Positions 7,742 through 36,384 of a stretch of DNA of 64,000 nt are shown piece after piece. The DNA lies in the IMG/VR virus record IMGVR_UViG_3300022674_000045, positions 37,628 through 101,627 of that record; one strand, 5' to 3'. A model generated the notes under the pieces. It was not told the DNA's origin, did not search any database, and saw only the letters and a program-made list of their open reading frames with translations. Position 1 is the first letter of the stretch; each line of letters opens with the position of its first letter. Source of the DNA: a virus. A program made the translations under genes and the position numbers.

Positions 7742-7784
7742 GATCTACCTATCCCTTTTTATTTTTTGTTCCAAAAAAAATAAA

Positions 7785-7904: not shown

Positions 7905-8822
7905 CTATGATGATTGAAGTCTTTCTAAGACTTCGAACATCCTTTGAGGAATAACCAAAACACTTTCCGCTGCATTTTCCATCAAGCGTTTTGTGTTCAG
8001 GTTTGGTTCAAAACTACTGTAGCGTACAATAGCTAAGAACATTTGCCATGCAGTTGGAAGTTGGTTTCCAGACTCACGTTGAATTTCATCCAATAATGTG
8101 GAAACAGCTTCCCTTCTCTTTTTACCAAAACCTTCAATGACATCTAACACTGCAAGCATTTCAGTTTCATTTAATGTACTTGAAAAGCTTTGAGTAATCA
8201 TATCAGCGATGCCTGTTGTAAAGGCTTCCATATATGAGTTTACTGCTGACGTTACACTTGTGCTTGAACTTGCAATATGAACTTGCCTTAATTCGCCCAA
8301 GCTAAAACCAAAAGTTACACGGTTACGAGCATAAGCCATTGAAATTCCAAAGGCAACTGAAGCTGCTCTTGTTCCGTTATAGCTATTATTCACAATCATA
8401 ACTGGCAACACATCACCTGCATTTGCAACCTGTTGACCATTTTGAATAATGATCTCATTACGCATACGGGTATTATCATATGTCATGATTGTATTTTCTG
8501 TCATAATTGGCATTCCAACTGACAGAATAGCATCTCTAATTCGTTGATTTAAAACATCATTACCGATGAATTTGTAAAGATTTGAAACATATCCAGCATA
8601 TTGATAATCAGTCCATTCTGGAGCCTTTGTAAATATAGCTATCATGGGTGCCTGTTGACCATCTGTTGGATGAAATAAAGTCGAATCTGAATTGTTTAAT
8701 AATCTTGTAAATAATTCACGATAAACTACTTCACCATATCTATCGGCATATGAATATAATCCTTTTATAGGGTTTGCTTCTAACCCCATATCACTTGCTC
8801 TTTCAGCAAACGATTCACTCAT
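7905..8822 (-). CDS. DUF932-like protein
   Basis: The 305-residue protein has the core pattern of the DUF932 phage/plasmid family: a beta segment with a strongly conserved NNSYNGTRAASVAFG stretch near residues 145-160, followed by AYARNRVTFG. DUF932 proteins are common on plasmids and phages; their function is not established. AAGGTGG lies upstream of the ATG, and the start overlaps the preceding gene by 8 nt. The elaborate structured 3' UTR and terminator suggest an abundant transcript. Confidence 0.55.
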   Translation of the reverse strand: MSESFAERASDMGLEANPIKGLYSYADRYGEVVYRELFTRLLNNSDSTLFHPTDGQQAPMIAIFTKAPEWTDYQYAGYVSNLYKFIGNDVLNQRIRDAILSVGMPIMTENTIMTYDNTRMRNEIIIQNGQQVANAGDVLPVMIVNNSYNGTRAASVAFGISMAYARNRVTFGFSLGELRQVHIASSSTSVTSAVNSYMEAFTTGIADMITQSFSSTLNETEMLAVLDVIEGFGKKRREAVSTLLDEIQRESGNQLPTAWQMFLAIVRYSSFEPNLNTKRLMENAAESVLVIPQRMFEVLERLQSS

Positions 8823-12291: not shown

Positions 12292-13188
12292 TTACAAATA
12301 CCTTTTTCCACTGAACCCTCCAGGAACTCCCTTCCAATTAATAGCGATAGCTTCAGATGTATGAATGGATTCTTCATGTGAACACTTTACAATCCAATCA
12401 TGAATAGCTGGATTACCATCCAATACATTAGAGATTTCACGAATTGCATCTTCAACAAACATTGGATTTTCAGCCGCAACTCTTGCAATCTCCTGCTCAT
12501 CAACTCTTTTAATTACAGGATATGGTAGGGTTTTAATTCTTGATTCAACTGATTCGATAATGTCCTCCAACCAAAGATAATTTGATTCTTCAACCTCGAC
12601 TAAAATGTCAGCGAATGATCTTTGATTGTGAGGAAACCCTCGACTATTATTTTCTCCTAAATGACTACATAATTCTGCTGAACACGGACAGTAAGATGCA
12701 TATTGTATTCTCACACCCTGATAGAATCTGAATACATCTTCTAATTTATAAACGTCCACTGGTTCAACATTTGTTTTTGTCAATTCTAACTGACCTTCAA
12801 ATCTACATCTGTAGTAAATTGGAAATTGGTTGTCAGATAAAATTGATTTGCGGTTGATCGGCATACGAAATTCAAACCGCATATAACTTGCTATACTTTC
12901 AACATTAACCTTTAAGTCTTCTAATATCTGTTTAATCAATTTGTGTTTCAATGGCAAATCCAAATATGGTTTTAGTGTCAGGAGAAGTCGAGACATTGAA
13001 ATACCTTTGGTATCTTTGTCTAGGTGAGTCCGCATAGAAACATTTGCGTTTAGTTGATGGAATCCTCCGTATTTTGATTCTAATTTAAACGGAACCTCAA
13101 CATTCTCGACCCCCACCTGTTGAATAGGGATGTGGATATTTGGAGATTCGCATTGAATATCTGGTAGACATTCTTTGCTATACGTCAT
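12292..13188 (-). CDS. folE2: GTP cyclohydrolase IB
   Basis: The 298-residue protein matches FolE2 (GTP cyclohydrolase IB), which opens GTP to form dihydroneopterin triphosphate. Signatures in order are GVENVEVPF near residue 28, an ANVSMRTHL stretch, YCPCSAEL with the metal-binding cysteine, GFPHNQRSF, NPMFVEDAIREI and HEESIHTSEA near the C-terminus. Length is normal for the family. GAGGAG is 10 nt before the ATG. With QueD encoded at 35965-36384 it supplies the first two steps of the 7-deazaguanine pathway, used by many large phages for DNA or tRNA modification. QueE and QueC are not visible in this window. Confidence 0.9.
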   Translation of the reverse strand: MTYSKECLPDIQCESPNIHIPIQQVGVENVEVPFKLESKYGGFHQLNANVSMRTHLDKDTKGISMSRLLLTLKPYLDLPLKHKLIKQILEDLKVNVESIASYMRFEFRMPINRKSILSDNQFPIYYRCRFEGQLELTKTNVEPVDVYKLEDVFRFYQGVRIQYASYCPCSAELCSHLGENNSRGFPHNQRSFADILVEVEESNYLWLEDIIESVESRIKTLPYPVIKRVDEQEIARVAAENPMFVEDAIREISNVLDGNPAIHDWIVKCSHEESIHTSEAIAINWKGVPGGFSGKRYL

Positions 13189-20099: not shown

Positions 20100-20443
20100 G
20101 CTCCTATCACCTCTTGTTTCCTGTATTCTATTTCATCCCAAGGTGTAAAGTAACAATCATCTAAATTAAAGCAACATAGCATCGTTGAAATCATCTTCAA
20201 TGTATTTTCGTTTAATTCTAACTCCCTTAATTTATTTGGAATACAAAATTCACCTGTACCTGGATCAGCATTTGGATGTGGATTATTTAAAAATATATTA
20301 TCTATTTTTCCATCTACTGTTTGAATTTTATATCCGCGAATAACAAACTTTGGATCTAATTTTAATATTTCATGAATTTGATTTCTAAAAATTAACTTGT
20401 AAGGAGTATGAACATTTCTGATTGTTTCAGTTTTTATGTTCAT
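20075..20443 (-). CDS. E2-like ubiquitin-conjugating protein
   Basis: The 122-residue protein carries the E2 active-site signature: HPN at residues 56-58 followed nine residues later by Cys67 in GTGEFCIPN. In eukaryotic E2s the HPN triad precedes the catalytic cysteine by nearly the same distance (HPN-x7-C, here HPN-x8-C). Helical sequence with a CC pair and a TPW turn follows, as in a minimal UBC core. The start codon overlaps the stop of the E1-like gene (TAATG), so the two are coupled. Neighbours include a ubiquitin-like protein, a second E1-like protein and a JAMM protease, which supports the call. The target is unknown. Confidence 0.65.
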   Translation of the reverse strand: MNIKTETIRNVHTPYKLIFRNQIHEILKLDPKFVIRGYKIQTVDGKIDNIFLNNPHPNADPGTGEFCIPNKLRELELNENTLKMISTMLCCFNLDDCYFTPWDEIEYRKQEVIGAWQTTIRD

Positions 20444-21303
20444 TATGCAGCTCCTGTTTCAGGTATCAATTCAATAAAATATTTTCCATCCGTTTGATTT
20501 AAGGCAACCACAAAATTGTTAAATTGACATTGGGTTGCAACGGCTCTCGATAGATTGATTATTATATCCCCACTTGTTCTTAAGGAATTTTTTGGGATTG
20601 AAAACTCTGACATTGGGAATAAACTACTCCCAACAAACACATCTACATCAGCTTGTTTATTTGCTTGTAGAATTGGAACTATTTTTTCCGGAAGGTTAAC
20701 AAATTTTTCTTCATTATCCGGATCTTCATATACAATATCATATGAGCAACTGTCAAGATGTTTTACATGATCCAACTCATATTTTTGAATAGATTGATCT
20801 TTTATGAGTTTTGAAATTGTATCATTATAGACCAACATTAATATTAGACTAGCTGCGTATCTCAAATCTTCTTTTGTTAATTCTGTTAGATACTTGCCCT
20901 CTGATTTGACTCTATACTCAACATTTTTTCTACAATCCACCATAAGATATCTTGAAGAAATATAAAGTCTTGCACTGATTTCTTTTAATCTGTCATATGT
21001 GAAATCTCTGCAATCCAAAACTAAATCACATTTTGGGATTTTAGTTTTTCCTTCAATATATTTCTCATTAAAACTGATTATTGTAACATCAGGATTTTTA
21101 CGAGAAATAATTTCATCTAGGGCGTCTGTCTTTTTCAAACCAACATCAATCTGTCGATATATGGAGTTTTTGAGGTTTTTTGATTCAACTGTATCGTGGT
21201 CTATAACTATTAGAGTTTCAAGAGTTTCAAGATTCGAAACAGCGTTGGCAACAAACCCTCCAAGGGTTCCAATGCCAATTACTGCGATTGATTTATATAC
21301 CAC
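20443..21303 (-). CDS. ThiF/E1-like adenylating protein A
   Basis: The 286-residue protein has a Rossmann ATP-binding motif AVIGIGTLGG at its N-terminus and the E1/ThiF pattern VIDHDTVESKNLKNSIY with a later DVGLKKTDAL (residues about 30-65), where the Asp, Asn, Arg/Lys and Asp of the adenylation site are expected. The CxxC zinc motif of MoeB/ThiF is absent, and no clear catalytic cysteine follows. Translation starts at GTG 21303 with GGGAG 11 nt upstream. It lies between the E2-like gene and a strong hairpin. It may be an inactive partner of the second E1-like protein, as in heterodimeric E1s, or an E1 with a different acceptor. Confidence 0.75.
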   Translation of the reverse strand: MVYKSIAVIGIGTLGGFVANAVSNLETLETLIVIDHDTVESKNLKNSIYRQIDVGLKKTDALDEIISRKNPDVTIISFNEKYIEGKTKIPKCDLVLDCRDFTYDRLKEISARLYISSRYLMVDCRKNVEYRVKSEGKYLTELTKEDLRYAASLILMLVYNDTISKLIKDQSIQKYELDHVKHLDSCSYDIVYEDPDNEEKFVNLPEKIVPILQANKQADVDVFVGSSLFPMSEFSIPKNSLRTSGDIIINLSRAVATQCQFNNFVVALNQTDGKYFIELIPETGAA

Positions 21304-22507: not shown

Positions 22508-23191
22508 TTAGTTGATTGCTCTAATTTTAGAGCTTGCGTTCATTGACAGAATATCAAAATAGATTTCTGATCTTTCATAGGACTCTTTAACTACTGCGTT
22601 ATAAAAAGTCCAACACATGATTGTTGCGACCCCCAAATTTGTAAAATATAGCTGGGGGTCAGAGTTAGCTAATTCTTCACATGACATCTCATTTGGTAAC
22701 TTGTCGGTTGGATTTGCAATCTCAGGATGGTATCTGCACAAATCAGGTGTAAGGTCTTTTCCTTCCTTACGAACATACAATTGTACATTTCCATCAGTAA
22801 ATTCATTTCCTCCGGAGATCAAAACAACATTTTTTAATTCTTTACAATAATTCCCTACTATCATCCGGGTCTTATGATTGTCAACGCCCATAAACACAAT
22901 ATCGCCTTCTAGAATAACTTCCGAAATGTTTTCCGGAGTTACATATTCTTCAAAGGCCTCCAACCTCAATTTAGGATACTTCATCTGGAGCTCACCGGCT
23001 TTAATATCAGCTTTATTCCCGAGTCTAACAAACTCTTGTCTTTCATAATTTTTTGCTTCGTATTTGTCTCCATCTACAAGCAAGATATCAGCTGATAAAT
23101 CATTTGAATAATTTAGAAATCGGCACAATCTTTCTATAAGGATTGAACCGACCCCGCCGAGCCCTATCACAACAATACCCATTTTATTCAT
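22508..23191 (-). CDS. ThiF/E1-like protein B (PRTRC ThiF-like)
   Basis: The 227-residue protein begins GIVVIGLGGVGS, an ATP-binding glycine loop, then ILLVDGDKYEAKNYERQEF with the E1 Asp, Asn and Arg positions. FMGVDNHKTR is the usual strand that follows. Near residue 178, EMSCEELANSDPQLYFTN matches the PRTRC-type ThiF pattern SC..A....QD.F.N, making this cysteine the likely thioester or thiocarboxylate acceptor. No zinc CxxC pair is present. It is encoded between the JAMM protease (2-nt gap) and the ubiquitin-like protein, which it presumably activates. Confidence 0.8.
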   Translation of the reverse strand: MNKMGIVVIGLGGVGSILIERLCRFLNYSNDLSADILLVDGDKYEAKNYERQEFVRLGNKADIKAGELQMKYPKLRLEAFEEYVTPENISEVILEGDIVFMGVDNHKTRMIVGNYCKELKNVVLISGGNEFTDGNVQLYVRKEGKDLTPDLCRYHPEIANPTDKLPNEMSCEELANSDPQLYFTNLGVATIMCWTFYNAVVKESYERSEIYFDILSMNASSKIRAIN

Positions 23192-23193
23192 TG

Positions 23194-24873
23194 TTACTTC
23201 TCCTTCCCAAACACACGTTTAAACATTGCAAATAATGTATCTTCCCGTTTTTGAGCAGAGGGTGGTTCCGGGATTGGTTTGCTTGCTCCATTTGGTTCAG
23301 GAATTCTTTCAATAGTCTGATCGGATTTTATCGCCTCTTGAAGAGCTACACGATTAATCTCTTCAGTTTCCGCTGATAAATATTCACCTGAGTCAGTTCT
23401 ACTCTGTTCAATCAGTTGTGCTTCTTGTGAATAGCAGGCACTTCCCCCACGTATTTCATCCGGTGGGCTGTCGATCAGTGAATAACAGAACGGGCATTGT
23501 TTCTCATCAGCAAAACGATGAAAACTATTTCCGCAAGATGGACATGTAATAAAAGCTGATGGTGGTCTATAACCATCTTCTGGTTTAAGTGGTGAATCGT
23601 CTTCCTTGGTGTAATGATTTGGAAGTTCATCTTCATTTACTAAACTCAAATATTCATCGGTTTTACAATTTGGACATACTGGCAACATAAGAGCGTCTGT
23701 ATTATCCACGACGATTTGTTTACATTTATCACATTTATAAACTTCTGTTTCGTCAAAGTCGTCCTCTGATTGTTCTGCCAGGAATTTATGACCTCTGAAT
23801 ACACATGTCTTGCAGGGAAAGAACTCATCGTCTGCGCCATCGAATACCACATCATGTTTTGGAAACTCAATAGGTTTAACTTTTACGCCCACATTAAATG
23901 GACTGGCTGCTCTATTATCCATTCCTGGAAGTGGCAGCTGTTTTTGAGTTGGAGTTGTTCTGGCAGGAGCTGTATATCTTCCTGCTTGGTTCCACAATGA
24001 GGCATCGAAATTTCGACCCCATCCTGGACTCTGACTTCTATGTTGACCATAAACTCCATACCCATAGTTGTATCCGTAATTATTATATTGATATTGATAT
24101 GTGCCTTTTTCAACCATTCCCATCCACTCGGATGGAACTTTATGATACTTTTCGGATACATTAACCACATAGCGTTTGTCATATCTTCTATAAGAATATG
24201 AAAACTGATTGGTTGCTTCTTTAACTTCTTCCATCTTGCCATTGATCCATCTATAGACACGTCTGGTTGGCCTCTGCTCCACTTCATCAATGTCTTTTGT
24301 TTTGATCAATCGCTCTACATAGTCTTCTGGTTCGACAACAAATCTATGACCATTGGCAACAATTGAAGCTGTAATGCTAACCTCATCGTTATTGACATTA
24401 CCAACGGTGATATGTAATCCATCAAAATGTTCTTCATCTTTATCATCCGTTCCTGAATGAAATGCTGACATGCTGGCATGACTATGAATTGTGCCAACCA
24501 TTGTCATTCCTTCTATGGTAATAGCTTTGTTATAATCACATGCTGCACCTGTCACTTTTTGATGCGGGGGAACAATTTTATAAACTCTTTTTGTTTCATC
24601 ATAAAATAAAAGGACAATTGATTCCCCATAATATTCTTTATATACCTCTCTGAAAAATGCAACAACTCTAGCAAATTGCCCGCCAGGAATCTTTTTAATG
24701 TTCATACGGGCCATCTTTTCAACACTCTCCAAAATGGAAATATTCTGAACTGGAGCGATACTTTCCATAATTCCCATTTTCTTCTTTAGAAAAATCCCCT
24801 CTTTCGCTACGATATAACATATATCATCATCCGGGATGGGGGAAGTCCCATCATTCACATGAATCTTGAACAT
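23194..24873 (-). CDS. JAMM/JAB metalloprotease with zinc ribbons
   Basis: The chosen start ATG 24873 has GAGGAG 8 nt upstream and gives 559 residues; the frame extends further upstream without a ribosome site. The JAMM motif is present at about residues 130-143: HSH, seven residues, then SGTD (HxHx7SxxD), with an upstream glutamate available as the fourth ligand. A Tyr/Gly-rich linker lies near residues 245-300. The C-terminal half has at least two CxxC zinc ribbons (CKTC, CDKC with CPNC, CPSC with CPFC). JAMM proteases remove or mature ubiquitin-like tags; PRTRC protein A belongs to the same superfamily. It overlaps the E2_D-like gene by 23 nt. Confidence 0.8.
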   Translation of the reverse strand: MFKIHVNDGTSPIPDDDICYIVAKEGIFLKKKMGIMESIAPVQNISILESVEKMARMNIKKIPGGQFARVVAFFREVYKEYYGESIVLLFYDETKRVYKIVPPHQKVTGAACDYNKAITIEGMTMVGTIHSHASMSAFHSGTDDKDEEHFDGLHITVGNVNNDEVSITASIVANGHRFVVEPEDYVERLIKTKDIDEVEQRPTRRVYRWINGKMEEVKEATNQFSYSYRRYDKRYVVNVSEKYHKVPSEWMGMVEKGTYQYQYNNYGYNYGYGVYGQHRSQSPGWGRNFDASLWNQAGRYTAPARTTPTQKQLPLPGMDNRAASPFNVGVKVKPIEFPKHDVVFDGADDEFFPCKTCVFRGHKFLAEQSEDDFDETEVYKCDKCKQIVVDNTDALMLPVCPNCKTDEYLSLVNEDELPNHYTKEDDSPLKPEDGYRPPSAFITCPSCGNSFHRFADEKQCPFCYSLIDSPPDEIRGGSACYSQEAQLIEQSRTDSGEYLSAETEEINRVALQEAIKSDQTIERIPEPNGASKPIPEPPSAQKREDTLFAMFKRVFGKEK

Positions 24874-27487
24874 GAAGGAAACTCCTCTCTTCTTGTAAAA
24901 ATTGAAGTTGTGATAATGAATTTTCAATAAACAATCCATGGAAATTAGGAAATGCCCATGTGGCTTCCATTTTAGATTGCTCTGTTGGACTTATTCTTGG
25001 ATTTGGAATACAATCCAATACTGTGTGGTTCTTTACATAATTGTCTATTGTATATGTTTCTGGATACGATGTGTAATATCCAAGAGACATCATTCTTGGG
25101 GTTTTGCTTTCATTAGTTCTTATAACTAACCACCCAAATGAATTTTGATAATCCCCACCAACACCTGTTAAAATATCACCAGGTTGTGGTTTAATCTTTG
25201 TAATGTCAATTGGAGCGTGGGCTAATGTTGCCCATTTTTTCGACTTCATCCCCACTCTTTTAAATTTCTCCATCATATCACTATACCACAATGTACAACA
25301 ATTTGAGCATAGAACTAATGGTTCATCTCCACCCGTATCTGTGATAAATCCAATAATAATATTTACATCTTTCTTTGGGAAATGTGGAATATAACCATGT
25401 TGTGCAATAATCTTAGTTCCAGCTGTAACTCTATCGAATTTGTTGGTTATCTTTCTAATTTTGCCAACACTTATTATTGATGAACCTCTACTACCTGATA
25501 TACCCTTCACATATTCAACTTGTGTTAAAGCTCCATCTTTATCACTTAACACAAAATTCAATGTGCCTTTAGCTTCATCTATCGTGAATGCTGTGATTGT
25601 TCTTACCATCAGCATATTAATTGGGTTATTCCAATCAGAAAATACGACCTTATCTCCAAGATCAAACCTAATGTTGAGATCAAAACTTTCAACTTCAAAT
25701 GTAAGGCCATCATTTTTGATTAGATGTTCTGCTACTTGTTTAATATCGGGGGTTGATGTAGAGTGATTATTATCATAAACAACTCCGCCTGGTGTTGCCC
25801 AACAATAACTCTCAACTCCAGCATGCCTCATATCAGTCTGAGATAATAACTTTCTCCCAACACGAAATACTTGTGGTAATGGTCTGATTTCATCTGCTGT
25901 AAATAATCTTCTTTGCTTTCGACCAAGCATTGACATTCTTCTAGATGAACTATCTCGTACCTGTAAATTATATCGTTGATCTTGGGGTGAGTACGATTTG
26001 TCTGTTCCCACAAATGAAAATTTCAAAGTTCCATCTTCACGAACATCAAGACCAGTATATTGAGCATTACTTCCAGCATGATATGGCCCAGAGTTTACTG
26101 AACGGATAATAACGTAATTTTCTTCTTTGTTCAATATAATATTATCATATTTCGGAGTATCTAAATTAAAAAGTTCTCCTTCTGTATTTTCAAGAATATA
26201 AAATGAATTACCTATTCTTGCTTCCGTAACTCCATCTCTTGCATTTCTAATGAAATGAACTTTTCTGTAACTTGGATTTCCATACCCATCTTTGACGACT
26301 ATAATATCGCCTTCTTTAATAACTGTCCCATTTTTCATTGTGCCTTGTTCATCATATCTTAATTTTTTGGCACCTGCATGGATGAAATCCTTAACTTTTG
26401 TATTAAACTTAACTTTGATTAATTTTTCATTATCTAACTGAAGTCTTATTTCACGAATAACATCTGTTTCTGTAAAACCAATGAAAGAATCAATATAGGC
26501 TATATGTTTACCCCAAGGAATAGGATCTCCAACATGGACATAGAACGTACTGTCTAAATAAATTCCTTGTGCAATATCATAATATAATCTGATCTTTTTT
26601 CTTGATCTTGAATAAGGAAGAGCGTCCTTTCCTGTATCTCCAGGTGATGTAAAAAGATGCTCTAATTCTTTATACCCAAGATGTGTCATTGGCATATTAT
26701 GATGTTGATCTTTCAAATGCTGGAGAGTTTGGTATATATTTTTATCCATTTTGATCCAATCAACACTATAGATAAACATTGGATCAATTTGTGATAATGC
26801 TTGCCATCCTAGATATGTGCTAACTCCAGGAACATCTTTATATGCTGTATAATTATATGTATAGTCGGAATTAAATGTTGCTGACCAAAACACCATAATA
26901 GTGTTTTCAATTGCATCATGCAATGTATTGAAATCTCCATGTGCTTTATCACCAAAACAAATATGTTGGTTGCTGCTAATATTCATCAATGGAGCTTTCA
27001 ATAGATAGTCGCTAAGGCCTGCCAATCTAGCATTTCTTAAATATGATTGACCAGCTATAAGATGATTCACTTCATCAAACATCAAAATGAAGATAACATA
27101 CGGAAATGCAAGATTAAATTTAAACGGAGCATTAGTGAAATCAGAATAATATTTTGTGTCTATGTTCCATTCTTCAATTTTTCCTTCTGATTTCAATTTT
27201 GCTATTTCTTGCTCCATCGGATAACCAACACTAATGGTTCTATATGCTGGTGGTTCCTCAATAACAACAATATATCCATTTCTTAATTTTTCAATATATC
27301 TACAATTTGGAGGTAACACAGATGCTCCACCAAAACCTGAAGTGATCTTTTGTAAATAATTTTTTGTTAAATGGACACTTCTTCTTACTTTTGGGGTTGA
27401 TGGTTGATCCAACCCCTCAGGATATTCTGAATGTAATAATTGAACGTACTTTGGGTTAATTCTTATTTCCTCTACAGTTTCAGGCAT
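24851..27487 (-). CDS. Large PRTRC-B / Prok-E2_D-like protein
   Basis: The 878-residue protein has an N-terminal region that resembles PRTRC protein B and the prokaryotic E2 family D. LPPNCRYIEKL begins near residue 58, EEPPAYRTI follows, FNLAFPYVIF begins near residue 123, and about 50 residues on comes YLLKAPLMNISSNQHICFGD, where families of this type have PxxNv...G.iC.G. That cysteine is the candidate active-site residue. A segment like the family's FxxSxF helix follows. The remaining ~600 residues are beta-rich with a CSNCC pair and are not recognised. The start is coupled to the upstream gene by TAATG. The E2-like assignment comes from pattern memory. Confidence 0.55.
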   Translation of the reverse strand: MPETVEEIRINPKYVQLLHSEYPEGLDQPSTPKVRRSVHLTKNYLQKITSGFGGASVLPPNCRYIEKLRNGYIVVIEEPPAYRTISVGYPMEQEIAKLKSEGKIEEWNIDTKYYSDFTNAPFKFNLAFPYVIFILMFDEVNHLIAGQSYLRNARLAGLSDYLLKAPLMNISSNQHICFGDKAHGDFNTLHDAIENTIMVFWSATFNSDYTYNYTAYKDVPGVSTYLGWQALSQIDPMFIYSVDWIKMDKNIYQTLQHLKDQHHNMPMTHLGYKELEHLFTSPGDTGKDALPYSRSRKKIRLYYDIAQGIYLDSTFYVHVGDPIPWGKHIAYIDSFIGFTETDVIREIRLQLDNEKLIKVKFNTKVKDFIHAGAKKLRYDEQGTMKNGTVIKEGDIIVVKDGYGNPSYRKVHFIRNARDGVTEARIGNSFYILENTEGELFNLDTPKYDNIILNKEENYVIIRSVNSGPYHAGSNAQYTGLDVREDGTLKFSFVGTDKSYSPQDQRYNLQVRDSSSRRMSMLGRKQRRLFTADEIRPLPQVFRVGRKLLSQTDMRHAGVESYCWATPGGVVYDNNHSTSTPDIKQVAEHLIKNDGLTFEVESFDLNIRFDLGDKVVFSDWNNPINMLMVRTITAFTIDEAKGTLNFVLSDKDGALTQVEYVKGISGSRGSSIISVGKIRKITNKFDRVTAGTKIIAQHGYIPHFPKKDVNIIIGFITDTGGDEPLVLCSNCCTLWYSDMMEKFKRVGMKSKKWATLAHAPIDITKIKPQPGDILTGVGGDYQNSFGWLVIRTNESKTPRMMSLGYYTSYPETYTIDNYVKNHTVLDCIPNPRISPTEQSKMEATWAFPNFHGLFIENSLSQLQFLQEERSFLHVQDSCE

Positions 27488-27861: not shown

Positions 27862-28200
27862 TTATCTCCTTTTCTTTGTGTAATATCTCCTATCTGCGGT
27901 ATCCATATATTCGACTCTTTCAAATGGAACCGATCTCCATGCTTTCTTTTCAAGGTCATAGACATGCATGATTTTATTCTTTTGAATAAGTTTCAAAATG
28001 TGTTGAATGTTTACACCTTTTGGATGATCTTTTACAGGAATCTTTTTAAAATCCAAGGTACATCTCATGATTCTTTCTGTATCATCCTTTTTTGTAAATT
28101 TTATAACAACATCTTTTTCCTCATAAACCTTCTTCCAAAATTGTAATGCACTAACTATTATATCAGAGTTAATTTTATCTTCTTGGTTATCATCAGGCAT
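27862..28200 (-). CDS. DUF2693-like SH3-fold protein
   Basis: The 112-residue protein contains VVIKFTKKDDTERIMRCTLDF, then a spacer, then MHVYDLEKKAWRSVPFERV. This is the layout I associate with DUF2693, a small beta-barrel domain in phages including T4 relatives; function unknown. GGGAGG precedes the ATG, and the gene follows the radical SAM gene without a gap. Confidence 0.5.
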   Translation of the reverse strand: MPDDNQEDKINSDIIVSALQFWKKVYEEKDVVIKFTKKDDTERIMRCTLDFKKIPVKDHPKGVNIQHILKLIQKNKIMHVYDLEKKAWRSVPFERVEYMDTADRRYYTKKRR

Positions 28201-29253
28201 TTATTTATCCTCCCTCTTATCAATATGAACTAAATCATCTTCCCCATCGCCTGATTCATCAATATACTTGCTCATCATTAAACATGAATGATTGCAGAGT
28301 TTACACATTCTGTTTTTATCGGTTTTGATTGATTCTAAGAATGCCTTGGATACTCTTTCAGGATCCTCTAAATCAAATAGATTCTCCAAACTAAATATCT
28401 GTGGTGTTACTGATCCACGAATCCTCAAACATAATCGAATGCTAGCATCTGCATCAACAGTTATATTGTGAATACCATTCTCTAATTGGCAATCGAAATT
28501 AGATGGTAATGTATCATACATCATTGGAAGTAAGACGTCGGCCATATGAATTAATAGAGTATCATCGTCCATCATGTTATTGAATAACATTGCCAATTCA
28601 AATGTTGGTTTCACTAAAGGGGAATAATCTGTAATATTTGAAAAATCATAATATATGTTTTTTGCGATATCTACGAATGTAATATCACTATATATTCCTG
28701 CATCGCTTAACTCTCCCACAAGATCATATAGGAGGTGTTTGTTATGATTCATGACTGTGATCTCTGCAACAACATCTTTTACGAAACCACTGTCCTGCAT
28801 CATTTTTAATCTCTTTAAACCTTCAACACTCTTTTTAACACGATCTTCACTTGAACCAATTTCATTAAATACAGGATCTACTGAACTTGTAAACCCTTCA
28901 AGATAATCGGTCTCTCTCATTAGCTTTTTAATCAAGGGTTGAATTTCCGGAGTGTTGTTGCTAATGATCGTATAGAAGATTTTGTTTTCATTACAATAAT
29001 TGATTATTATTGATAAATCTTTTCTCAATAACGGCTCTCCGCCATAGAATATATGAAATGCATTTGGGTTATGAATTTTAAATGCTCTAAGACCAGCTAT
29101 AACCATTTCTGTTGACATTTCATTTTTAATATAATGTGCCATGTCAGGATAACTACCTGGTTTGTTCGGGTAATTCTTGACTATGGCACAATATTCACAT
29201 TTAAGATTACATCGTCTTGTCAATATCCAATTGACTATTCGGATTTTACTCAT
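28201..29253 (-). CDS. Radical SAM/SPASM-like enzyme
   Basis: The protein is 350 residues from ATG 29253, which overlaps the upstream stop as TAATG with GGGAG 8 nt upstream. The 4Fe-4S motif CNLKCEYC (C15, C19, C22) defines a radical SAM enzyme. FYGGEPLLRKDL near residue 75 is the SAM-binding GGE motif. The C-terminal CKLCNHSCLMM near residue 320 resembles a SPASM/twitch auxiliary cluster, typical of peptide-modifying enzymes. It is too long and differently arranged for QueE. The two genes directly upstream encode proteins with the shared DFVTNSSS N-terminal tag, which are candidate substrates. Confidence 0.8.
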   Translation of the reverse strand: MSKIRIVNWILTRRCNLKCEYCAIVKNYPNKPGSYPDMAHYIKNEMSTEMVIAGLRAFKIHNPNAFHIFYGGEPLLRKDLSIIINYCNENKIFYTIISNNTPEIQPLIKKLMRETDYLEGFTSSVDPVFNEIGSSEDRVKKSVEGLKRLKMMQDSGFVKDVVAEITVMNHNKHLLYDLVGELSDAGIYSDITFVDIAKNIYYDFSNITDYSPLVKPTFELAMLFNNMMDDDTLLIHMADVLLPMMYDTLPSNFDCQLENGIHNITVDADASIRLCLRIRGSVTPQIFSLENLFDLEDPERVSKAFLESIKTDKNRMCKLCNHSCLMMSKYIDESGDGEDDLVHIDKREDK

Positions 29254-29618
29254 TAGGCTTGCTCCCATACACGAAGTATTCCACCTTGATCTTTTATTTC
29301 TTGCTCAAAAGTTCTCCACTCTCTATGCTGATTAGCTTCTGCAAAAACGGCTATCTTTCCGTCTAATATTACTTTCAGGCAGTCTTCATACTGTTTTGAA
29401 GTTAGGCGTGCCCACTCTTTCGGTCCACGAGCAAGATCAATCCAATCACAAGGATCTGCTTGGGTATAAGATATAAGATGTTCTTTTGTTTTGAAGCTTC
29501 TTAATCTTTCCCATTTTACAAACTTCCATTCCAAATGATCTCTACAAATCGGGTGGTCTGCTTCAAATACAAAACAAATAGATGAACTGTTTGTAACGAA
29601 ATCAAATTTGATTTTCAT
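29253..29618 (-). CDS. DFVTNSSS-tag protein B
   Basis: The 121-residue protein begins MKIKFDFVTNSSSICFV, one of five near-identical N-termini in this window. The rest is acidic and aromatic, with no similarity to the other family members visible beyond the tag. Both ends are coupled: its ATG overlaps the stop of tag protein A (TAATG) and its stop overlaps the start of the radical SAM gene. The tag is not a Sec signal: it lacks a hydrophobic core. Confidence 0.75.
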   Translation of the reverse strand: MKIKFDFVTNSSSICFVFEADHPICRDHLEWKFVKWERLRSFKTKEHLISYTQADPCDWIDLARGPKEWARLTSKQYEDCLKVILDGKIAVFAEANQHREWRTFEQEIKDQGGILRVWEQA

Positions 29619-30001
29619 TATGAAAGTTCCTCAGCAACCATATCAATATACTTTGATCTTTCAAATTCATCACATGCTTGATAATCAACTGCACAATATA
29701 CCGCAACGTGCTCTTCATCTACAACCTCTTTTATTTTCAAATATAACTCTTTATCAAGGTTATGGAATCGAAGGCCTCCCATTGGTTTAGATGCCCAATC
29801 ATATGGACGCCCATTTGTCCAGTCTTGAAGTTCTTGTAAATTATAGAAAACCCGATATATTCCAACACCTTCATTTTGATAATTAGGATTTTCATTTAAT
29901 TTAGCTACGTATTCTTCAAATTGCGGAACTTCATCTGGTGGGAGACTCATAATGTAACAAGCCGATGAACTGTTTGTTACAAAATCAGATTTTATCCTCA
30001 T
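29618..30001 (-). CDS. DFVTNSSS-tag protein A
   Basis: The 127-residue protein begins MRIKSDFVTNSSSACYI. The remainder is an acidic alpha/beta sequence. AGGAG lies upstream of the ATG, 8 nt after the SbcC-like stop. It is first in a coupled run with tag protein B and the radical SAM gene. Confidence 0.75.
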   Translation of the reverse strand: MRIKSDFVTNSSSACYIMSLPPDEVPQFEEYVAKLNENPNYQNEGVGIYRVFYNLQELQDWTNGRPYDWASKPMGGLRFHNLDKELYLKIKEVVDEEHVAVYCAVDYQACDEFERSKYIDMVAEELS

Positions 30002-30009
30002 ACTTTCTC

Positions 30010-32202
30010 CTAACTAAATGCTAATGTTTGATCAGCTTCCAAATGATCTTGATGTTGATGTGAAATGATATAAATACATTTCCCTATCTTTATTTTCGAT
30101 AATACCTTTGATACATACTGAATATTTTGCTCATCTAATGCATCAAATATTTCATCAAACAGAAGTATGTTAAATGAGATGTTTTGAATATTCGATAACA
30201 AATCCCCAAGAGTTAAAATGATTGCAATATCAATTATTCTTGTTTGACCTCCTGATAATTGTACTCGAGAATTTGCTCTTGTTTGTGTGTCAAGAACATG
30301 AACCGAAATTTTATCTCTGAACTCTCCAGCTTTTGTCTCGGCTAATGTATCAAATGAAACAACATATCTTCCATTTGTTAGCATATCAAGATAATGTTCT
30401 ACACGCTCATTCATAAATGGAACAGCTTCATCAATTAACATAGAAGGAATGCCTGTTGCAGAGAAACCTGTTTTCCAGAATGATGCCACTTCTTGTAATT
30501 CATCAAACCTAGAAACTCTTTCTTTTGCTGTTTTAATTGCAATCTTATATTCTCTTTCTTTTTTCATGTAATTATTCAATTGAGATTCATCATATTCAGA
30601 AGCTTCAATCTCTTTTATTCTTTGTTCTGATTGTTTAATATCATTCTGAATATTTCTAACATTTTCTTTTATAGATTCAATTTCAGAAAGTTTTTCCTCT
30701 TGAATCTTTCTTTTTTCAAGTAATTCGTTCTTTTGTTCTTGCAATTCACTACTTTTGGTATTTTCTTCTTGTTTAATATTTTGTTCCTCTTGTTTGGCCA
30801 ATTCGAGAACCTTACTCGTTGCTGTTTCAAGCTTGTCTCTGATTGCAGAATATTCTTCCTGTTGTGCTCTCTTAACAGCATTTTGCTCGCTATCATTATG
30901 TTTTAACTCATCATTTGCTTTGTTGCTTTCTTCAGATAGCTTACGGTTCACTTCTGTAATCTTTGTATTAAACTGACCAATCTCTTGTAGATATTGTTTA
31001 ATTTCTTGTCTATATCCTGCAATTTTATCTTCAAGAGTTTTTATCGTTACTTCATCAACCGTTTGTTCACATAATGGACATTCTGATATATCATGATCAA
31101 TCACATGAGTTTGTATTTCTTCAATGCGACCATCCAATGAACTACATGAATTTTCTAATCTATTCTTTTTAATTTCAAGTTCATGTTTTTCTTCTTGAAG
31201 CTCTGCAATCTTGTCAGAAAGTGCCTGTTTGATTTCAACTCTCTTATCTTGCAATTGAACTAAAAGTGTCATATGTTTATCTTTAATCTCTACTTCAGCG
31301 TTCTGTGCGGCACCTTTTAATTCAAGAATCTTGGTTTGCTTTCTATTATCAAGATCTTTAAACCTTTGTGAAAACACTTGTGCCAAATCTTTTAATGTAC
31401 TTTCTATTGTTGCAAGATTTGTTATTGTATCTTCTAACTTAATATCATGATTTTTCTCTAAACCTTCAAGACTCTTTGTCCACTGATTCAGTAGTCTTGT
31501 TGATTCCTCAATTGATTTATTCTTTTCAGCAATGCGTTCTTCTTTTTGCTTGAAGAAATCAACCTTTGATTTTTTCAATAATTCAATTTGCTCTTTTGTA
31601 TCTTCCAACAATCCAATATTAATTTGGATTCTTTTATCAAGTTCAGATCTTTGTTCATTTACATCTTTATATGCCTGATCCGCAAATTTGTAATATGTGA
31701 GAAACATTTCCAGATCTAAAACTTTTCTGAATATTTCTTTCTTTTGTGAGTCAGGAAGATCCGTAAAGAAGTCTTTCACCTTTTGCCCAAACATCAATGC
31801 GTTCATAAATGCTTTTTGCGGACAAATGATTCTTTCAATCAATGGCAATACTTCTTTATGACCCTGTTTAATATCAACACCATTTAAATTTACAATTACG
31901 GTGTTGTTATATTTTGTATATTTGTGGTATCGGGTTACCTTATATTTATCATCATTGACTTTGAATTTGACCCATGTCTTGCAATTTTTTCCGATTTTAT
32001 TATTAACAACATCATCACCTCTAGCTCCCTTAGAAGTGACTCCATACAGAGTAAACGGAATTGCATCTATGGCCATTGTTTTCCCAATACCATTTGGCCC
32101 TGTGATCAATGTAAGCTTATCACTTTCAAATGTCAGGACCATTGGGTCGATATAAGGTCCATAATTTTTCATCCCTACTTCTAAAAAGGTTATGTTTTTC
32201 AT
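30010..32202 (-). CDS. SbcC/Rad50-like recombination ATPase (T4 gp46-like)
   Basis: The 730-residue SMC-like protein has Walker A GPNGIGKT at residues 35-42, two long coiled coils separated by a CPLC zinc hook near residue 375, the signature LSGGQTRI, and Walker B NILLFDEIFDALDEQN near the C-terminus. It forms the SbcCD/Mre11-Rad50-type complex with the product of the gene immediately upstream, which overlaps by 4 nt. The complex processes DNA ends for recombination-dependent replication and degrades host DNA in T4. Confidence 0.9.
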   Translation of the reverse strand: MKNITFLEVGMKNYGPYIDPMVLTFESDKLTLITGPNGIGKTMAIDAIPFTLYGVTSKGARGDDVVNNKIGKNCKTWVKFKVNDDKYKVTRYHKYTKYNNTVIVNLNGVDIKQGHKEVLPLIERIICPQKAFMNALMFGQKVKDFFTDLPDSQKKEIFRKVLDLEMFLTYYKFADQAYKDVNEQRSELDKRIQINIGLLEDTKEQIELLKKSKVDFFKQKEERIAEKNKSIEESTRLLNQWTKSLEGLEKNHDIKLEDTITNLATIESTLKDLAQVFSQRFKDLDNRKQTKILELKGAAQNAEVEIKDKHMTLLVQLQDKRVEIKQALSDKIAELQEEKHELEIKKNRLENSCSSLDGRIEEIQTHVIDHDISECPLCEQTVDEVTIKTLEDKIAGYRQEIKQYLQEIGQFNTKITEVNRKLSEESNKANDELKHNDSEQNAVKRAQQEEYSAIRDKLETATSKVLELAKQEEQNIKQEENTKSSELQEQKNELLEKRKIQEEKLSEIESIKENVRNIQNDIKQSEQRIKEIEASEYDESQLNNYMKKEREYKIAIKTAKERVSRFDELQEVASFWKTGFSATGIPSMLIDEAVPFMNERVEHYLDMLTNGRYVVSFDTLAETKAGEFRDKISVHVLDTQTRANSRVQLSGGQTRIIDIAIILTLGDLLSNIQNISFNILLFDEIFDALDEQNIQYVSKVLSKIKIGKCIYIISHQHQDHLEADQTLAFS

Positions 32203-33236
32203 GCTAGAGATTCTTCCCCTTTTCTGATTATTTCCATAGCGATTTGCATGTAAAGATCATGTTTGTCTTCCGGAATTTCTTTGATCTCCAAATATCTTTT
32301 CAATTTGTCTTCCGTTGACATATTACTTGTAATACCACGATCAGTTATATCTCTATCTGTTTTATCAATTACATTAAATTCCCCTTTAATATCAGATAGA
32401 TCAACTGTTTCTTTCATGATAACTTTAACATGATCTCCAGCTTCCTTTGCCTGCCTTGCCTGTTTAATAGCTTCATCTTTATTATCAGATGTTATTTCAA
32501 TTTGAATATGTTTCTTGTATTTGGTGATTGGGATACTGTCAACTTGTAATGTATCAGAATCAACAATCAAAAATCTTTTCTCGTCCTGCCGCTCTCCCCA
32601 ATCCAATTGAATTAATGAACCAACATAAAATAACCTTACTCCATGCATTGTTATTTCTTGTGGTTTATGATAATGCCCCAACAATACCAATTCGTATTTC
32701 CCTTGTAAATCTTTCATTGATATATTGGATACAATACTCATTCCAGAATTTAATACGCCCTCACTTAATCCAAAATGTGAAATTAATATTCTGGATTTAT
32801 TATATTTTACTTCTTCGGGAACATTATAAGAATATGGAACTAAAAGAATATTCTCATTTTCGATTTGATGTGTATCTTTGAAGCTAACCCAATTGACATT
32901 TGAAATATCTTCCAATGGTCTCAAAGCTGAAACAACATCAGATCCTTTTCCCGATAGATCGTGGTTTCCATCAATAACATAAAATGTTATCAGGTGCGCC
33001 CAATCTTTAAAATATTGAATCATTATATCCTGAGCGATTGCATGAATTATTGATTTGCCATGCAAAACATCCCCACCAATAATGATGGTAAACACATTAT
33101 TTTTTATACAATATTGTGCAACTTCGTATAATGCATTTTTTATACTGCTCAACCGCTCAGGAAGATTCGTTTGGTCCTCGACTTTGTCTTGACCATACCG
33201 TGACAAATGAATGTCTGCAATAAAGGCAAATCTCAT
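32199..33236 (-). CDS. SbcD/Mre11-like nuclease (T4 gp47-like)
   Basis: The 345-residue metallophosphoesterase shows DIHLS at the N-terminus, GGDVLHG, DGNHD, SHFG and LLGHYH in order, the five metal-binding motifs of Mre11/SbcD. It overlaps its SbcC partner by 4 nt and the prepilin-like gene by 4 nt (ATGA). Length is typical. Confidence 0.92.
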   Translation of the reverse strand: MRFAFIADIHLSRYGQDKVEDQTNLPERLSSIKNALYEVAQYCIKNNVFTIIIGGDVLHGKSIIHAIAQDIMIQYFKDWAHLITFYVIDGNHDLSGKGSDVVSALRPLEDISNVNWVSFKDTHQIENENILLVPYSYNVPEEVKYNKSRILISHFGLSEGVLNSGMSIVSNISMKDLQGKYELVLLGHYHKPQEITMHGVRLFYVGSLIQLDWGERQDEKRFLIVDSDTLQVDSIPITKYKKHIQIEITSDNKDEAIKQARQAKEAGDHVKVIMKETVDLSDIKGEFNVIDKTDRDITDRGITSNMSTEDKLKRYLEIKEIPEDKHDLYMQIAMEIIRKGEESLA

Positions 33237-33469
33237 AATTTTTTTAGATCTCCTTTTTCCTCTATTGGTTGTTCTGGTGGTTCTTCTTTTTGCTCTATAG
33301 CATCCCTTTGTTTCTCTTGCTCTTGTGTGATAACTTCAATATTCTGTATATTTTCTTTAAAGCTATCGGACACATTGATTGCTGTTGGAATAACTATAGC
33401 TGCCATAATTAGAACTATAACTATAGCAACCAATAACTCCACAAGAGTAAACCCTTTTTTATTCAACAT
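33233..33469 (-). CDS. Type IV prepilin-like protein
   Basis: The protein is 78 residues from ATG 33469 (AAAAGGAG 8 nt upstream; an ATG 21 nt further up lies before that site). It begins MLNKKGFTLVELLVAIVIVL, a textbook class III signal: Lys-Lys-Gly, cleavage before Phe, Glu at +5, then a hydrophobic helix. The mature part is short and highly charged, ending in a Glu/Pro/Lys-rich tail, so it cannot form a full globular pilin head. The gene is locked between a tag protein and SbcD by overlaps. Prepilin-like proteins are unusual in phages; it could use or disturb the host prepilin peptidase or pilus, or simply be a small membrane protein. Confidence 0.75.
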   Translation of the reverse strand: MLNKKGFTLVELLVAIVIVLIMAAIVIPTAINVSDSFKENIQNIEVITQEQEKQRDAIEQKEEPPEQPIEEKGDLKKL

Positions 33470-33914
33470 CTTTATCACTCCTTTTAACATTACAAAATGT
33501 ACTTAAATCAATATGATTTAATAATATATTAAGAACTTTCTCCTGTTGAATACCCATGATAATATCTTCGCTACTTGATGAAATATCGACAGACGAAACT
33601 AAAAGATCTTTATCCCCAAGATAATTCATTAGAACTTCGTATGTTCTACTATCAAGACCAAGACCATCCCCATATTCACCCCTATAAAGAGATTCTCCAC
33701 TTTTTAATTCTTCAATACAGCCAATAATATCTTGAGGAATCATTTCTATAAATATTTCTCTTTCATCATCTGCCATTTCATCAAAGTCTGCCCATTTAAG
33801 CATTTCTTCGATTGCGGGTTTAATATCATCACGTCTCACTTCAAAATCATTTGGAATGAAAACTATATAACAGGTGGATGAACTATTTGTTACAAAATCA
33901 GATTTTATTTTCAT
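33459..33914 (-). CDS. DFVTNSSS-tag protein C
   Basis: The protein is 151 residues from ATG 33914 (GAAGGA 8 nt upstream, overlapping the upstream stop as TAATG). It begins MKIKSDFVTNSSSTCYI. The body is acidic and ends VKRSDKDVE. The last 11 nt overlap the prepilin-like gene. Confidence 0.75.
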   Translation of the reverse strand: MKIKSDFVTNSSSTCYIVFIPNDFEVRRDDIKPAIEEMLKWADFDEMADDEREIFIEMIPQDIIGCIEELKSGESLYRGEYGDGLGLDSRTYEVLMNYLGDKDLLVSSVDISSSSEDIIMGIQQEKVLNILLNHIDLSTFCNVKRSDKDVE

Positions 33915-34219
33915 TAGTAACATCCTTCATGATGAATATGATCTTCATCTATCCCCATGTTAATTAGAAATTTTATCATATCAAAATTGTCCATTGAGGT
34001 TTCTCCTGCAATGTTGTTTTCAGTTTCTGTAATTTTCCAAGCATCATATTTACTCCAAGACCAATTTGCATTAGGGTCTTCATTTCGTCCACCATAATAT
34101 TGCTCGGCAATTTTCATATGATTGTGGATCATGAATATTTGTAGATCTGTCAGATGTTTTTTCTGAATAACAAAACTTGCACATGAACTGTTTGTTACAA
34201 AATCTGTTTTTAATTTCAT
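33914..34219 (-). CDS. DFVTNSSS-tag protein D
   Basis: The protein is 101 residues from ATG 34219, with GAGG 9 nt upstream; an upstream in-frame ATG precedes the ribosome site. It begins MKLKTDFVTNSSCASFV, where the third serine is replaced by cysteine. The body has a His-rich C-terminus (DHIHHEGCY). Confidence 0.72.
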   Translation of the reverse strand: MKLKTDFVTNSSCASFVIQKKHLTDLQIFMIHNHMKIAEQYYGGRNEDPNANWSWSKYDAWKITETENNIAGETSMDNFDMIKFLINMGIDEDHIHHEGCY

Positions 34220-34224
34220 TTTTT

Positions 34225-34566
34225 CTACCTCAGATATTCTTCGAACCTCCAATCAAAATTTTCAGATGATCCTCCATCTCGAAGAATATAATCAAATACA
34301 CGACCGATCAATGTTCCCTGTTCATCACCGAATACTATATATTTCGCTTCACCTGGTTTGAAGAACTCATTGTTTTCTTGTGCTGACATAAGAAGATTTT
34401 CTTGTGTATATTCTTCTTCATTACACTTATACATCTCAACAAATTCTTTAATCAGTTGTGGGTTTTCTTCCACAAAATTAAATAGAGATAATTTTTTGTC
34501 AGATGTGTTTTGAATAATAAAAGCTGTTGAACTACTATTGGTGACAAAATCAATTTTAAATTTCAT
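34225..34566 (-). CDS. DFVTNSSS-tag protein E
   Basis: The 113-residue protein begins MKFKIDFVTNSSSTAFI. The body is acidic and helical with an FDYILRDGG segment. GGAGGG lies upstream within the end of the helicase gene. It is the first of three consecutive tag genes (E, D, C) in transcription order. Confidence 0.75.
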   Translation of the reverse strand: MKFKIDFVTNSSSTAFIIQNTSDKKLSLFNFVEENPQLIKEFVEMYKCNEEEYTQENLLMSAQENNEFFKPGEAKYIVFGDEQGTLIGRVFDYILRDGGSSENFDWRFEEYLR

Positions 34567-34567
34567 A

Positions 34568-35965
34568 TCATTTACCCTCCAATATATTAAAGGCCACGTC
34601 CTTGTCTATTTTATTTAATTTGTTATTTGCGAATAACAAATATTGAACTGGCCATTTCTTCATTTCATAAAAATTCACTCTACTATATAATGTCCTTGCA
34701 ATTTCAGGACAATCGTAATCGACCATATCAATGATGATTGGTGTTTGTTTCCCTGGATATGATCTCAAAACACGTCCACTTAATTGATCAATGTTTGATA
34801 TTGGAGATGTTGTAATGATTGCATCTTTCCACGGAGCATCAATTCCATCCCTACATTTTCCAGGTGTTGCAAATGTAAAATGTTGATTTAATTCTTTAAG
34901 ACTTGCAGATTTATAAAACTTTGATTTACTTGGAAATACAAGCCAATCATAAAATTCATCAATCAGCTTTGTTCTCTCAAGAATCATTATTGCATGTCTA
35001 TCATGTTTTATTTTATTCATTAACCCTTGAGCTAATGTTACAAATGTTTGTGACTTTTTCATTTGGTTTAAATATCGTGCTCTTTGAAATTGCCCGCCCC
35101 ATCGGATATATCCTCCACTCTTTGATGATATACCATAATCAGCTAAGATGACTGTTACTCTTGCATCCATTGTTCCTTCCGTATCATCATCTATAAATAT
35201 ATCACCCAAATGAAATTCAATGATGTCTCCATTCCCATCATATCTGTATGGGGTTGCGCTTAAACCATATGTATATTTTGATGGCATATGTATTGAGCAT
35301 TCTGAAAATGTTGGAGCTCCAACTGATGTATGAACTTCATCAGCTACAAATATTCCAATATTCGCTTCATGCAATGCCTTTAAAAATTCCATTCTATTTC
35401 TATTTAACAATGAAATGAATGTTTGAGTCGTTGAAATAATAATTGGTTTCTTTAAATCTTCTTCAAATGTTGCTGATGTGATTCTTGATATATCATCAAA
35501 TGATATATTTGTGAAATCTGTAAATCGTTTTTTCCATTGCTCTGCTAAACTATCACGGTGAACTAAAATTAATGATTTTCTTTTTCGTGTTGCAATCATG
35601 TAGATTGTAATAACAGTTTTTCCAACACCAGGCGATAGCTGCAAAATTCCATTTTCATTCGATAATATATACTGAATTGCTTTTTCTTGGGTAACACTTC
35701 TTGGCTTGATAATATGTTTAATATCAATTACTTCCCCATCATGAGTTCGGTCTTCTATTTTATAATCAAATAGAAATTGTTGAATCGGGAAGTTCCTAGG
35801 AATCAAAAGGAACTTCTCCGACTCAATATAGAATTTGTTTACAACAAATGTTGATCTGTTATATTCTTTTGACCGGCGCTCTAAGAATTCTCTTATTTTA
35901 ATGTAGAACTCTTTATATTCGTGTTCCTTTGAAATTAACAATCCAGAGCGCTTTATGATATTCAT
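34568..35965 (-). CDS. SF2 DNA helicase (UvsW-like)
   Basis: The protein is 465 residues from ATG 35965, which overlaps the queD stop as TAATG; a longer frame would overlap queD by 82 nt. Superfamily 2 motifs are LQLSPGVGKT (I), LVHRDSL (Ia), VADEVH (II) and GLSATPYR (III), with a C-terminal RecA-like domain (LSGRVLRSYPGKQ, motif VI). An N-terminal domain of ~120 residues precedes motif I, as in UvsW/ComFA-type helicases. It probably acts in recombination and fork remodelling with the nearby SbcCD complex. Confidence 0.88.
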   Translation of the reverse strand: MNIIKRSGLLISKEHEYKEFYIKIREFLERRSKEYNRSTFVVNKFYIESEKFLLIPRNFPIQQFLFDYKIEDRTHDGEVIDIKHIIKPRSVTQEKAIQYILSNENGILQLSPGVGKTVITIYMIATRKRKSLILVHRDSLAEQWKKRFTDFTNISFDDISRITSATFEEDLKKPIIISTTQTFISLLNRNRMEFLKALHEANIGIFVADEVHTSVGAPTFSECSIHMPSKYTYGLSATPYRYDGNGDIIEFHLGDIFIDDDTEGTMDARVTVILADYGISSKSGGYIRWGGQFQRARYLNQMKKSQTFVTLAQGLMNKIKHDRHAIMILERTKLIDEFYDWLVFPSKSKFYKSASLKELNQHFTFATPGKCRDGIDAPWKDAIITTSPISNIDQLSGRVLRSYPGKQTPIIIDMVDYDCPEIARTLYSRVNFYEMKKWPVQYLLFANNKLNKIDKDVAFNILEGK

Positions 35966-36384
35966 TATTCTGTATATGTCGCCTTGGAATTTTCGTTTTC
36001 GTAAACTGTTACATAATCCATCATAACGCCGGGATGTTTTAAGCAAAGAACAACTGCTAAATTTCTATATAAGCTTTCTGATAATCTTTCCGCCGTTGGA
36101 TCATAATGAACAAGCATTGTTCGCATTCCCATACTGTCCAACTGATCTGCTATCTCTTTATCTTTGTCATTCAATAAAAGACAATGATCAAAAGTATCAA
36201 GATATGCATTAACCATTGATTTCAATTCAGCAAAATCCAATACCATATCATTATCATTTAATTCTTTAGCTTTTAACCCGACTAACACCGTGAAATTGTG
36301 ACCATGAATTGAGAAACAACGACCTTTATGTTTACTCAATCTATGACCAATCGGCAATGTGAATCTTTTTTCTATTTTAAACAT
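35965..36384 (-). CDS. queD: 6-carboxytetrahydropterin synthase
   Basis: The 139-residue protein belongs to the 6-pyruvoyl-tetrahydropterin synthase/QueD fold. GHRL near residue 13 supplies the first zinc histidine, and CFSIHGHNF near residues 23-31 gives the catalytic cysteine and the HxH zinc ligands. LDFAELK and FDHCLLLND follow, and the catalytic glutamate (PTAERLSE) is in place. It converts the FolE2 product (dihydroneopterin triphosphate) toward preQ0. Length is normal. Confidence 0.9.
   Translation of the reverse strand: MFKIEKRFTLPIGHRLSKHKGRCFSIHGHNFTVLVGLKAKELNDNDMVLDFAELKSMVNAYLDTFDHCLLLNDKDKEIADQLDSMGMRTMLVHYDPTAERLSESLYRNLAVVLCLKHPGVMMDYVTVYENENSKATYTE

Follow-up and report, generated by a model that had tools for sequence, protein, structure and literature searches.

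The window analysed here is a stretch of 64,000 nucleotides covering positions 37,628–101,627 of a 101.6-kb IMG/VR phage contig, which is itself a fragment of a phage. On its minus strand lie five genes whose proteins share a nearly identical N-terminus, M(K/R)xKxDFVTNSS(S/C) (hereafter the tag), together with a gene for a radical S-adenosylmethionine (SAM) protein (Table 1). All five tag open reading frames (ORFs) of the original prediction are present, and the TAATG overlaps that it had read between two tag genes (at 29618) and between a tag gene and the radical SAM gene (at 29253) are both real. The longest ORF of the radical SAM gene begins at 29268; the start is best set at the ATG at 29253 (MSKIRIVNW), because the TAATG junction with the tag gene is found there. 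The gene had been called radical SAM/SPASM: the first part stands (PF04055), and for the second there is a Cys-rich C-terminal region but no Pfam SPASM hit. The contig carries seven tag genes in total. The remaining two lie outside the window, at about 25.0–25.9 kb of the contig, and directly adjoin a second radical SAM gene (contig 25908–26900, equivalent to 7409–8401 of locus L014), some 39 kb from the window enzyme. The two enzymes represent two families found near tags, called here A (the window enzyme) and B (the second enzyme).

Table 1. Tag genes, radical SAM gene and conserved neighbours in the window (window coordinates)
Feature	Position	Strand	Evidence and remarks
Radical SAM protein, family A	28201..29253	-	PF04055 E=6.6e-13; alignment A3 with invariant C15/C19/C22 and C-terminal Cys; homologues in 49 viral loci
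Tag protein MKIKFDFVTNSSSICFVF..., 121 aa	29253..29618 (tag 29565-29618)	-	TAATG overlap with radical SAM gene; body cluster 2
Tag protein MRIKSDFVTNSSSACYIM..., 127 aa	29618..30001 (tag 29948-30001)	-	TAATG overlap with next tag gene; body cluster 2
Tag protein MKIKSDFVTNSSSTCYIV..., 151 aa	33459..33914 (tag 33861-33914)	-	Body cluster 1
Tag protein MKLKTDFVTNSSCASFVI..., 100 aa	33914..34216 (tag 34163-34216)	-	Body cluster 3; AlphaFold: residues 1-9 disordered, strand 12-18
Tag protein MKFKIDFVTNSSSTAFII..., 113 aa	34225..34566 (tag 34513-34566)	-	Body cluster 5
WYL_2/phrog_1086 protein, usual downstream neighbour of family A	27862..28200	-	Pfam WYL_2 1.4e-6; phrog_1086 5.6e-13
Large Prok-E2-like protein, conserved family-A neighbour, not a tag protein	24851..27487	-	Prok-E2_D E=1.3e-4, just under cut-off; similar genes in family-A loci

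In IMG/VR phages, hundreds of proteins begin with the tag. Scanning IMG/VR with a DNA pattern for MKxxxDFVTN retrieved at least 120 stretches, and many of the records hold two to five copies. The consensus covers 18 residues, MK(I)(K/R)x(D/G)FV(T/S)NSSSxSF(I/V)(I/V). In 245 tags with standard spacing, the information content is near-maximal at positions 6–13 and at background level after residue 18 (the start of this profile is biased by the DNA pattern used for collection). Residues T9, N10, S11 and S12 are near-invariant across 301 unique tag proteins, and a chance origin of the shared N-terminus is excluded. There is no conserved Cys in the tag, with occasional Cys at positions 14, 15 and 18. 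The conservation had also been attributed to the DNA, but it sits at the protein level: the invariant Ser11–13 are encoded by both serine codon families (TCN/AGY 130/171, 134/167 and 191/104, respectively), so that selection acts on the protein, and further tag codons also vary synonymously. In some loci of families A and B, variant tags (DFNTNSSS, RGFVTNSSS, IGFVTNSSS) were missed by the regular expression. In isolate phages, a 20-aa tag query was too short for tblastn and the tags were detected with a tag hidden Markov model (HMM). No chain in the PDB matches a tag consensus.

Beyond the tag, the bodies differ. Tag proteins are about 80–500 aa long, with a median of 134 aa. By their bodies, 304 unique ones form 35 sequence clusters after HMM merging. 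Profile–profile comparison of the 16 clusters that have four or more members reveals almost no homology between bodies (best pair at 28% probability), and a common domain sought across all larger clusters gave no convincing result. That the bodies differ, as first noticed in the window, is thus generally correct, except that the two nearest the radical SAM gene are weakly related (23% identity, merged into cluster 2). The window tag proteins are covered by no Pfam or NCBIfam family, and phrog_7397 weakly matches residues 1–24 or 1–32 of two of them. The body of cluster 4 is Cys-rich and zinc-ribbon-like. In AlphaFold models for clusters 0 and 3, residues 1 to ~10 are disordered (predicted local distance difference test, pLDDT, 52 and 44), the segment SxF(I/V)(I/V) opens the first β-strand of the folded domain, and the domains themselves are modelled as folded (pLDDT 91 and 80). 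Foldseek with two tag-protein models gave no significant match.

Family B (alignment A2) is of the SPASM/twitch type. Among solved structures it is closest to SkfB, BtrN and PqqE, of which SkfB and PqqE modify peptides. Both PF04055 and SPASM (PF13186) are matched in the enzymes of L136 and L137; in the enzymes of subtype B1, the last SPASM cysteines are missing. Family A is most like MoaA within the PDB and has no relative at E 1e-5 in a set of 50,697 phage records. Its conserved neighbourhood is distinct, with WYL_2, a ~123-aa protein and a large Prok-E2-like protein, and the WYL_2/phrog_1086 neighbour recurs in most family-A loci inspected. Enzymes of both families match only generic radical SAM or SPASM models, below every specific cut-off. 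No PqqD-like domain was matched by Pfam in the enzymes, though Pfam easily misses domains of this type (RiPP recognition elements, where RiPP stands for ribosomally synthesised and post-translationally modified peptide). The spacing of the radical SAM cysteines varies: CX3CX2C in B1, CX7CX6C in 13 enzymes of subtype B2, C-X-CX3CX3C in 7 and CX7CX2C in phage RB16 (L268); the enzymes with odd spacing include those of L136, L075, L092, L073 and further B2 members. The family-B enzyme of L089 (3795–6131, plus strand) contains an in-frame intein with a LAGLIDADG domain.

The linkage between tag and enzyme was followed in both directions. Most loci selected by the tag hold family B or A. Of the phage records measuring 100 kb or more, 27 were picked by tag alone; family B is present in 26 of these and a full family-A enzyme in 7. 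In the reverse test, loci were retrieved by enzyme sequence without using the tag (80 for family B and 49 for family A). Canonical tags occur within 1 kb in 49/80 family-B loci, with 65/65 tags on the same strand; the corresponding number for family A is 21/49 (24/49 in the whole fetched stretch). Some seemingly tag-less loci have tags elsewhere in the same record. In the family-B tree, every deep branch includes loci with an adjacent tag, and the tag-less loci form several nested groups, some of them without downstream sequence. Up to seven tag proteins stand alongside one enzyme. Of the family-A records, 19 measure 80 kb or more; tags occur in 9/9 of those with B and in 5/10 of those without B. 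The original prediction had staked the pairing on co-occurrence of tag and radical SAM gene across genomes, and this co-occurrence is strong. The window enzyme, which it had named as the partner, does pair with tags; the chief partner, however, is family B outside the window, with family A secondary and about half of its loci tagged.

When genome contigs were scanned with a strict DNA pattern, one locus only was recovered, and for this reason the cellular distribution was sampled in 398 Bacillota_A genomes and in plasmid records. In Bacillota_A, the tag HMM and the B HMM select the same ten genomes, with the pair adjacent in 10/10 (in the tenth, L136, enzyme and tag are separated by a 276-aa gene). 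Such a match has a probability of about 1 in 2.5e19 assuming independent genomes; the ten include two near relatives (L287 and L288) and so fall short of full independence, but they represent at least three distinct gene contexts. In two Bacillota genomes, the order is an Avs1a-like metallo-β-lactamase (MBL) gene, a trypsin-STAND gene (STAND, signal transduction ATPases with numerous domains), a ~135-aa protein, tag and enzyme. The MBL match to Avs1a is at 4e-77, and the STAND proteins match Avs1b in the protease part only and Avs2 in the NTPase part only. In further Bacillota, the tag protein is ~480–510 aa long. On alphaproteobacterial plasmids (Agrobacterium pAt, Rhizobium, Rhodobacter), a SMEK-NACHT STAND NTPase is found with usually a ~120-aa protein, a tag protein starting MKIKxDFVSNSSSTSFVYI and a family-B enzyme. 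The enzymes of these two defence-type contexts, SMEK-NACHT and trypsin-STAND, form one clade (support 100/96; some branches are long). Bacterial loci without any phage genes retain the tag–enzyme pair. In L284, L287 and L288 (Bacillota), the neighbours of tag and enzyme are genes of an iron- or cobalamin-type importer, for its FecCD permease and its periplasmic binding protein. In L136, a Clostridia metagenome-assembled genome, a tag ORF (5735–5851, plus strand) stops after ~37 residues and may be a decayed or a minimal tag protein.

In isolate phages, the pair is found in Escherichia phage RB16, where RB16p156 is a distant B enzyme and the genes of two tag proteins starting MKIRSGFVSNSSSSSFI, RB16p106 and p111, lie ~20 kb from it. 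The proteins RB16p111 and one tag protein of the window phage belong to the same body cluster. In the 50,697 phage records, the enzyme occurs in 174 and the two tag proteins in 174 and 175, with near-identical taxon counts, an agreement between counts and not between full accession lists. The ~174 isolate phages with the enzyme and both tag genes include RB16, RB43 and KP15; they amount to few independent events because they form one related group.

Residue 4 of the tag follows the subtype of the enzyme. In phages, 94/95 tags at B1 loci have K at this position and 72/72 tags at B2 loci have R, and the rule is kept inside the three body clusters common to B1 and B2. There is no shift between B1 and B2 at K2 or in the overall K/R use of the bodies; general lysine/arginine usage was rejected as a cause, with body R/(K+R) at 0.35 at B1 and 0.31 at B2. 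A concerted change of residue 4 with the enzyme subtype, whatever the body, is what direct recognition predicts, and K4/R4 looks like a specificity determinant in phages (and in phages only, because cellular relatives carry both residues). Shared descent of the phage lineages is an alternative source of the pattern, but it would require parallel changes of residue 4 in several tag families.

On balance, we favour the view that the 18-residue N-terminus is a portable tag that a dedicated radical SAM enzyme recognises and probably modifies. An exposed flexible tail would be formed by residues 1 to ~12, and the first β-strand of a small folded protein by residues ~13–18. The tail would be bound and read by a family-B SPASM/twitch enzyme of the same operon or phage, which most likely alters at least one residue within F7–S13, and one enzyme would place the same modification on several unlike proteins. 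Family A probably supplies a second enzyme, with some of the tagged proteins as its targets. In its biological effect, the modification could serve host takeover or counter-defence in phages and, in some bacteria, be part of STAND-type immunity. The original suggestion of a signal read by a modifying enzyme survives in the co-occurrence with radical SAM genes but not in its choice of main enzyme. Since the tag has no conserved Cys, a Cys-based thioether chemistry is unlikely. Epimerisation, carbon–carbon or ether cross-linking and serine oxidation, all established chemistries of such radical SAM enzymes, are possible.

More tentatively, the system may be one of general tagging, in which one radical SAM enzyme gives many unlike folded proteins the same radical-chemistry modification at their N-terminal tails, in phages during infection (with a one-residue code) and, independently, in bacterial STAND operons, possibly as bait or trigger.

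Several observations weigh against a modified tag. The canonical tag is missing in 31/80 family-B loci (some of these loci are truncated and others bear variant tags) and, nearby, in 25/49 family-A loci. The phage lineages are related and the counts hence overstate the independent events. In L250 and L251, from two different metagenomes, a relative of the cluster-1 tag body without a tag lies just downstream of an intact B1 enzyme. The cellular relatives show both types of residue 4, and the K/R rule fails there. Finally, both the modification of the tag and its chemistry are putative.

Other roles for the tag can be considered. It could merely be a docking leader, with the enzyme acting on other parts of the tagged proteins, in their bodies or at their C-termini. 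The K4/R4 rule speaks to recognition only, and leader-dependent radical SAM enzymes exist, as in streptide maturation (PMC8326336). We consider this unlikely: with 35 body clusters and almost no common feature, one enzyme would need many targets, and the strongest invariance is at F7–S13, past the residue-4 contact. The probability is also low that the tag proteins are not substrates but tail-bound partners or adaptors, steering the enzyme to another substrate or regulating it. Such a role would suit the folded domains of the bodies, the tag-less loci of family A and the 20 kb that can lie between tag genes and enzyme gene; however, as many as seven tag proteins stand against one enzyme, and the common body expected of adaptors is not shared. 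It is quite improbable that the tag directs sorting or packaging, in the manner of the capsid-targeting N-terminus of T4 internal proteins, next to radical SAM genes that only co-travel in gene blocks. One N-terminus on many small phage proteins would fit, as would the frequent grouping of phage genes by expression time, but the pair is kept in bacterial loci devoid of phage genes and residue 4 tracks the enzyme subtype. A DNA-level element at gene starts (recombination hotspot or regulatory site), for which the likeness of DNA between copies noticed earlier and the common 5′ ends before differing bodies could speak, is refuted as the main cause by the switching between two unrelated codon families at Ser11–13 and the synonymous variation of other codons.

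Other genes of the window deserve mention. Two ThiF/E1-like proteins (20443–21303 and 22508–23191) and the Prok-E2-like protein adjoin the family-A gene, a possible phage ubiquitin-like conjugation cluster. Beside a tag gene, a small ORF (33233–33490, minus strand) has the type IV prepilin N-terminal methylation motif KKGFTLVELLVAIVIV (PF07963, 1.2e-8). A 6-pyruvoyl-tetrahydropterin synthase (QueD-like, 35965–36384) and a GTP cyclohydrolase FolE2 (12292–13188) are encoded, which suggests 7-deazaguanine synthesis in the phage. The segment 61374–64000 holds a PfkB-family kinase resembling the HldE heptose kinase, after which the G+C content rises up to 0.48 in the final 2 kb of the window.

Radical SAM enzymes are familiar as makers of small modified peptides, and an enzyme family devoted to one N-terminal tag on many full-size folded proteins would, if true, add a new level to protein modification. 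Hundreds of phage proteins without known function would become easier to approach, a phage modification system would be connected with AVAST-like immunity, and biotechnology could gain a portable enzymatic tag. The system is directly testable, because phages of Escherichia and Klebsiella that can be cultivated (RB16, RB43, KP15, KP27) carry it.

In the literature searched, neither the motif nor the tag–enzyme pairing is described (subscription journals and preprints lie outside that search, and an earlier description elsewhere is possible). The closest known systems are the RiPP radical SAM/SPASM maturases (SkfB, PqqE, CteB, StrB, MftC), which have in common with the present enzymes a radical SAM core with a twitch/SPASM C-terminus and a gene beside that of the presumed substrate. 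Here, however, the enzyme is presumed to act on the N-terminal tail of folded proteins of ~80–500 aa, several per enzyme, instead of on a short leader–core precursor peptide, and no core peptide, exporter or leader protease is seen at the phage loci. In contrast to sactipeptide and ranthipeptide maturation, the tag offers no conserved Cys for a thioether. Anaerobic sulfatase-maturating enzymes (anSMEs) are SPASM radical SAM enzymes that modify the short motif C/S-x-P/A-x-R inside full-size sulfatases; the likeness lies in the short motif within full-size proteins, but that motif is absent from the tag, and among the hits listed family B has no match to anSME models. In sortase/LPXTG and exosortase/PEP-CTERM systems, a short sorting motif on many unrelated proteins is recognised by its co-occurrence with one processing enzyme; the present tag lies at the N-terminus, unlike those C-terminal membrane signals, and is paired with a radical SAM protein. 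Some cellular pairs lie behind genes like those of the AVAST (Avs) STAND defence, with either an Avs1a-like MBL and a trypsin-STAND gene or a SMEK-NACHT gene, yet the pair is also found without any STAND gene, and the phage loci have none. With PADLOC, the tag and radical SAM genes fit no system model fully, and the radical SAM gene alone gives weak matches to prokaryotic viperins (pVip). Viperins are likewise radical SAM enzymes, with an antiviral context in some cases, but they act on nucleotides and, unlike families A and B, have no tag partner; the window enzyme reaches 41 bits against the NCBIfam viperin model (cut-off 180) and thus falls outside that family. Within what was searched, the system appears undescribed; it can be placed as a form of radical SAM peptide maturation, and the chance is substantial that it represents a new kind of protein tagging.
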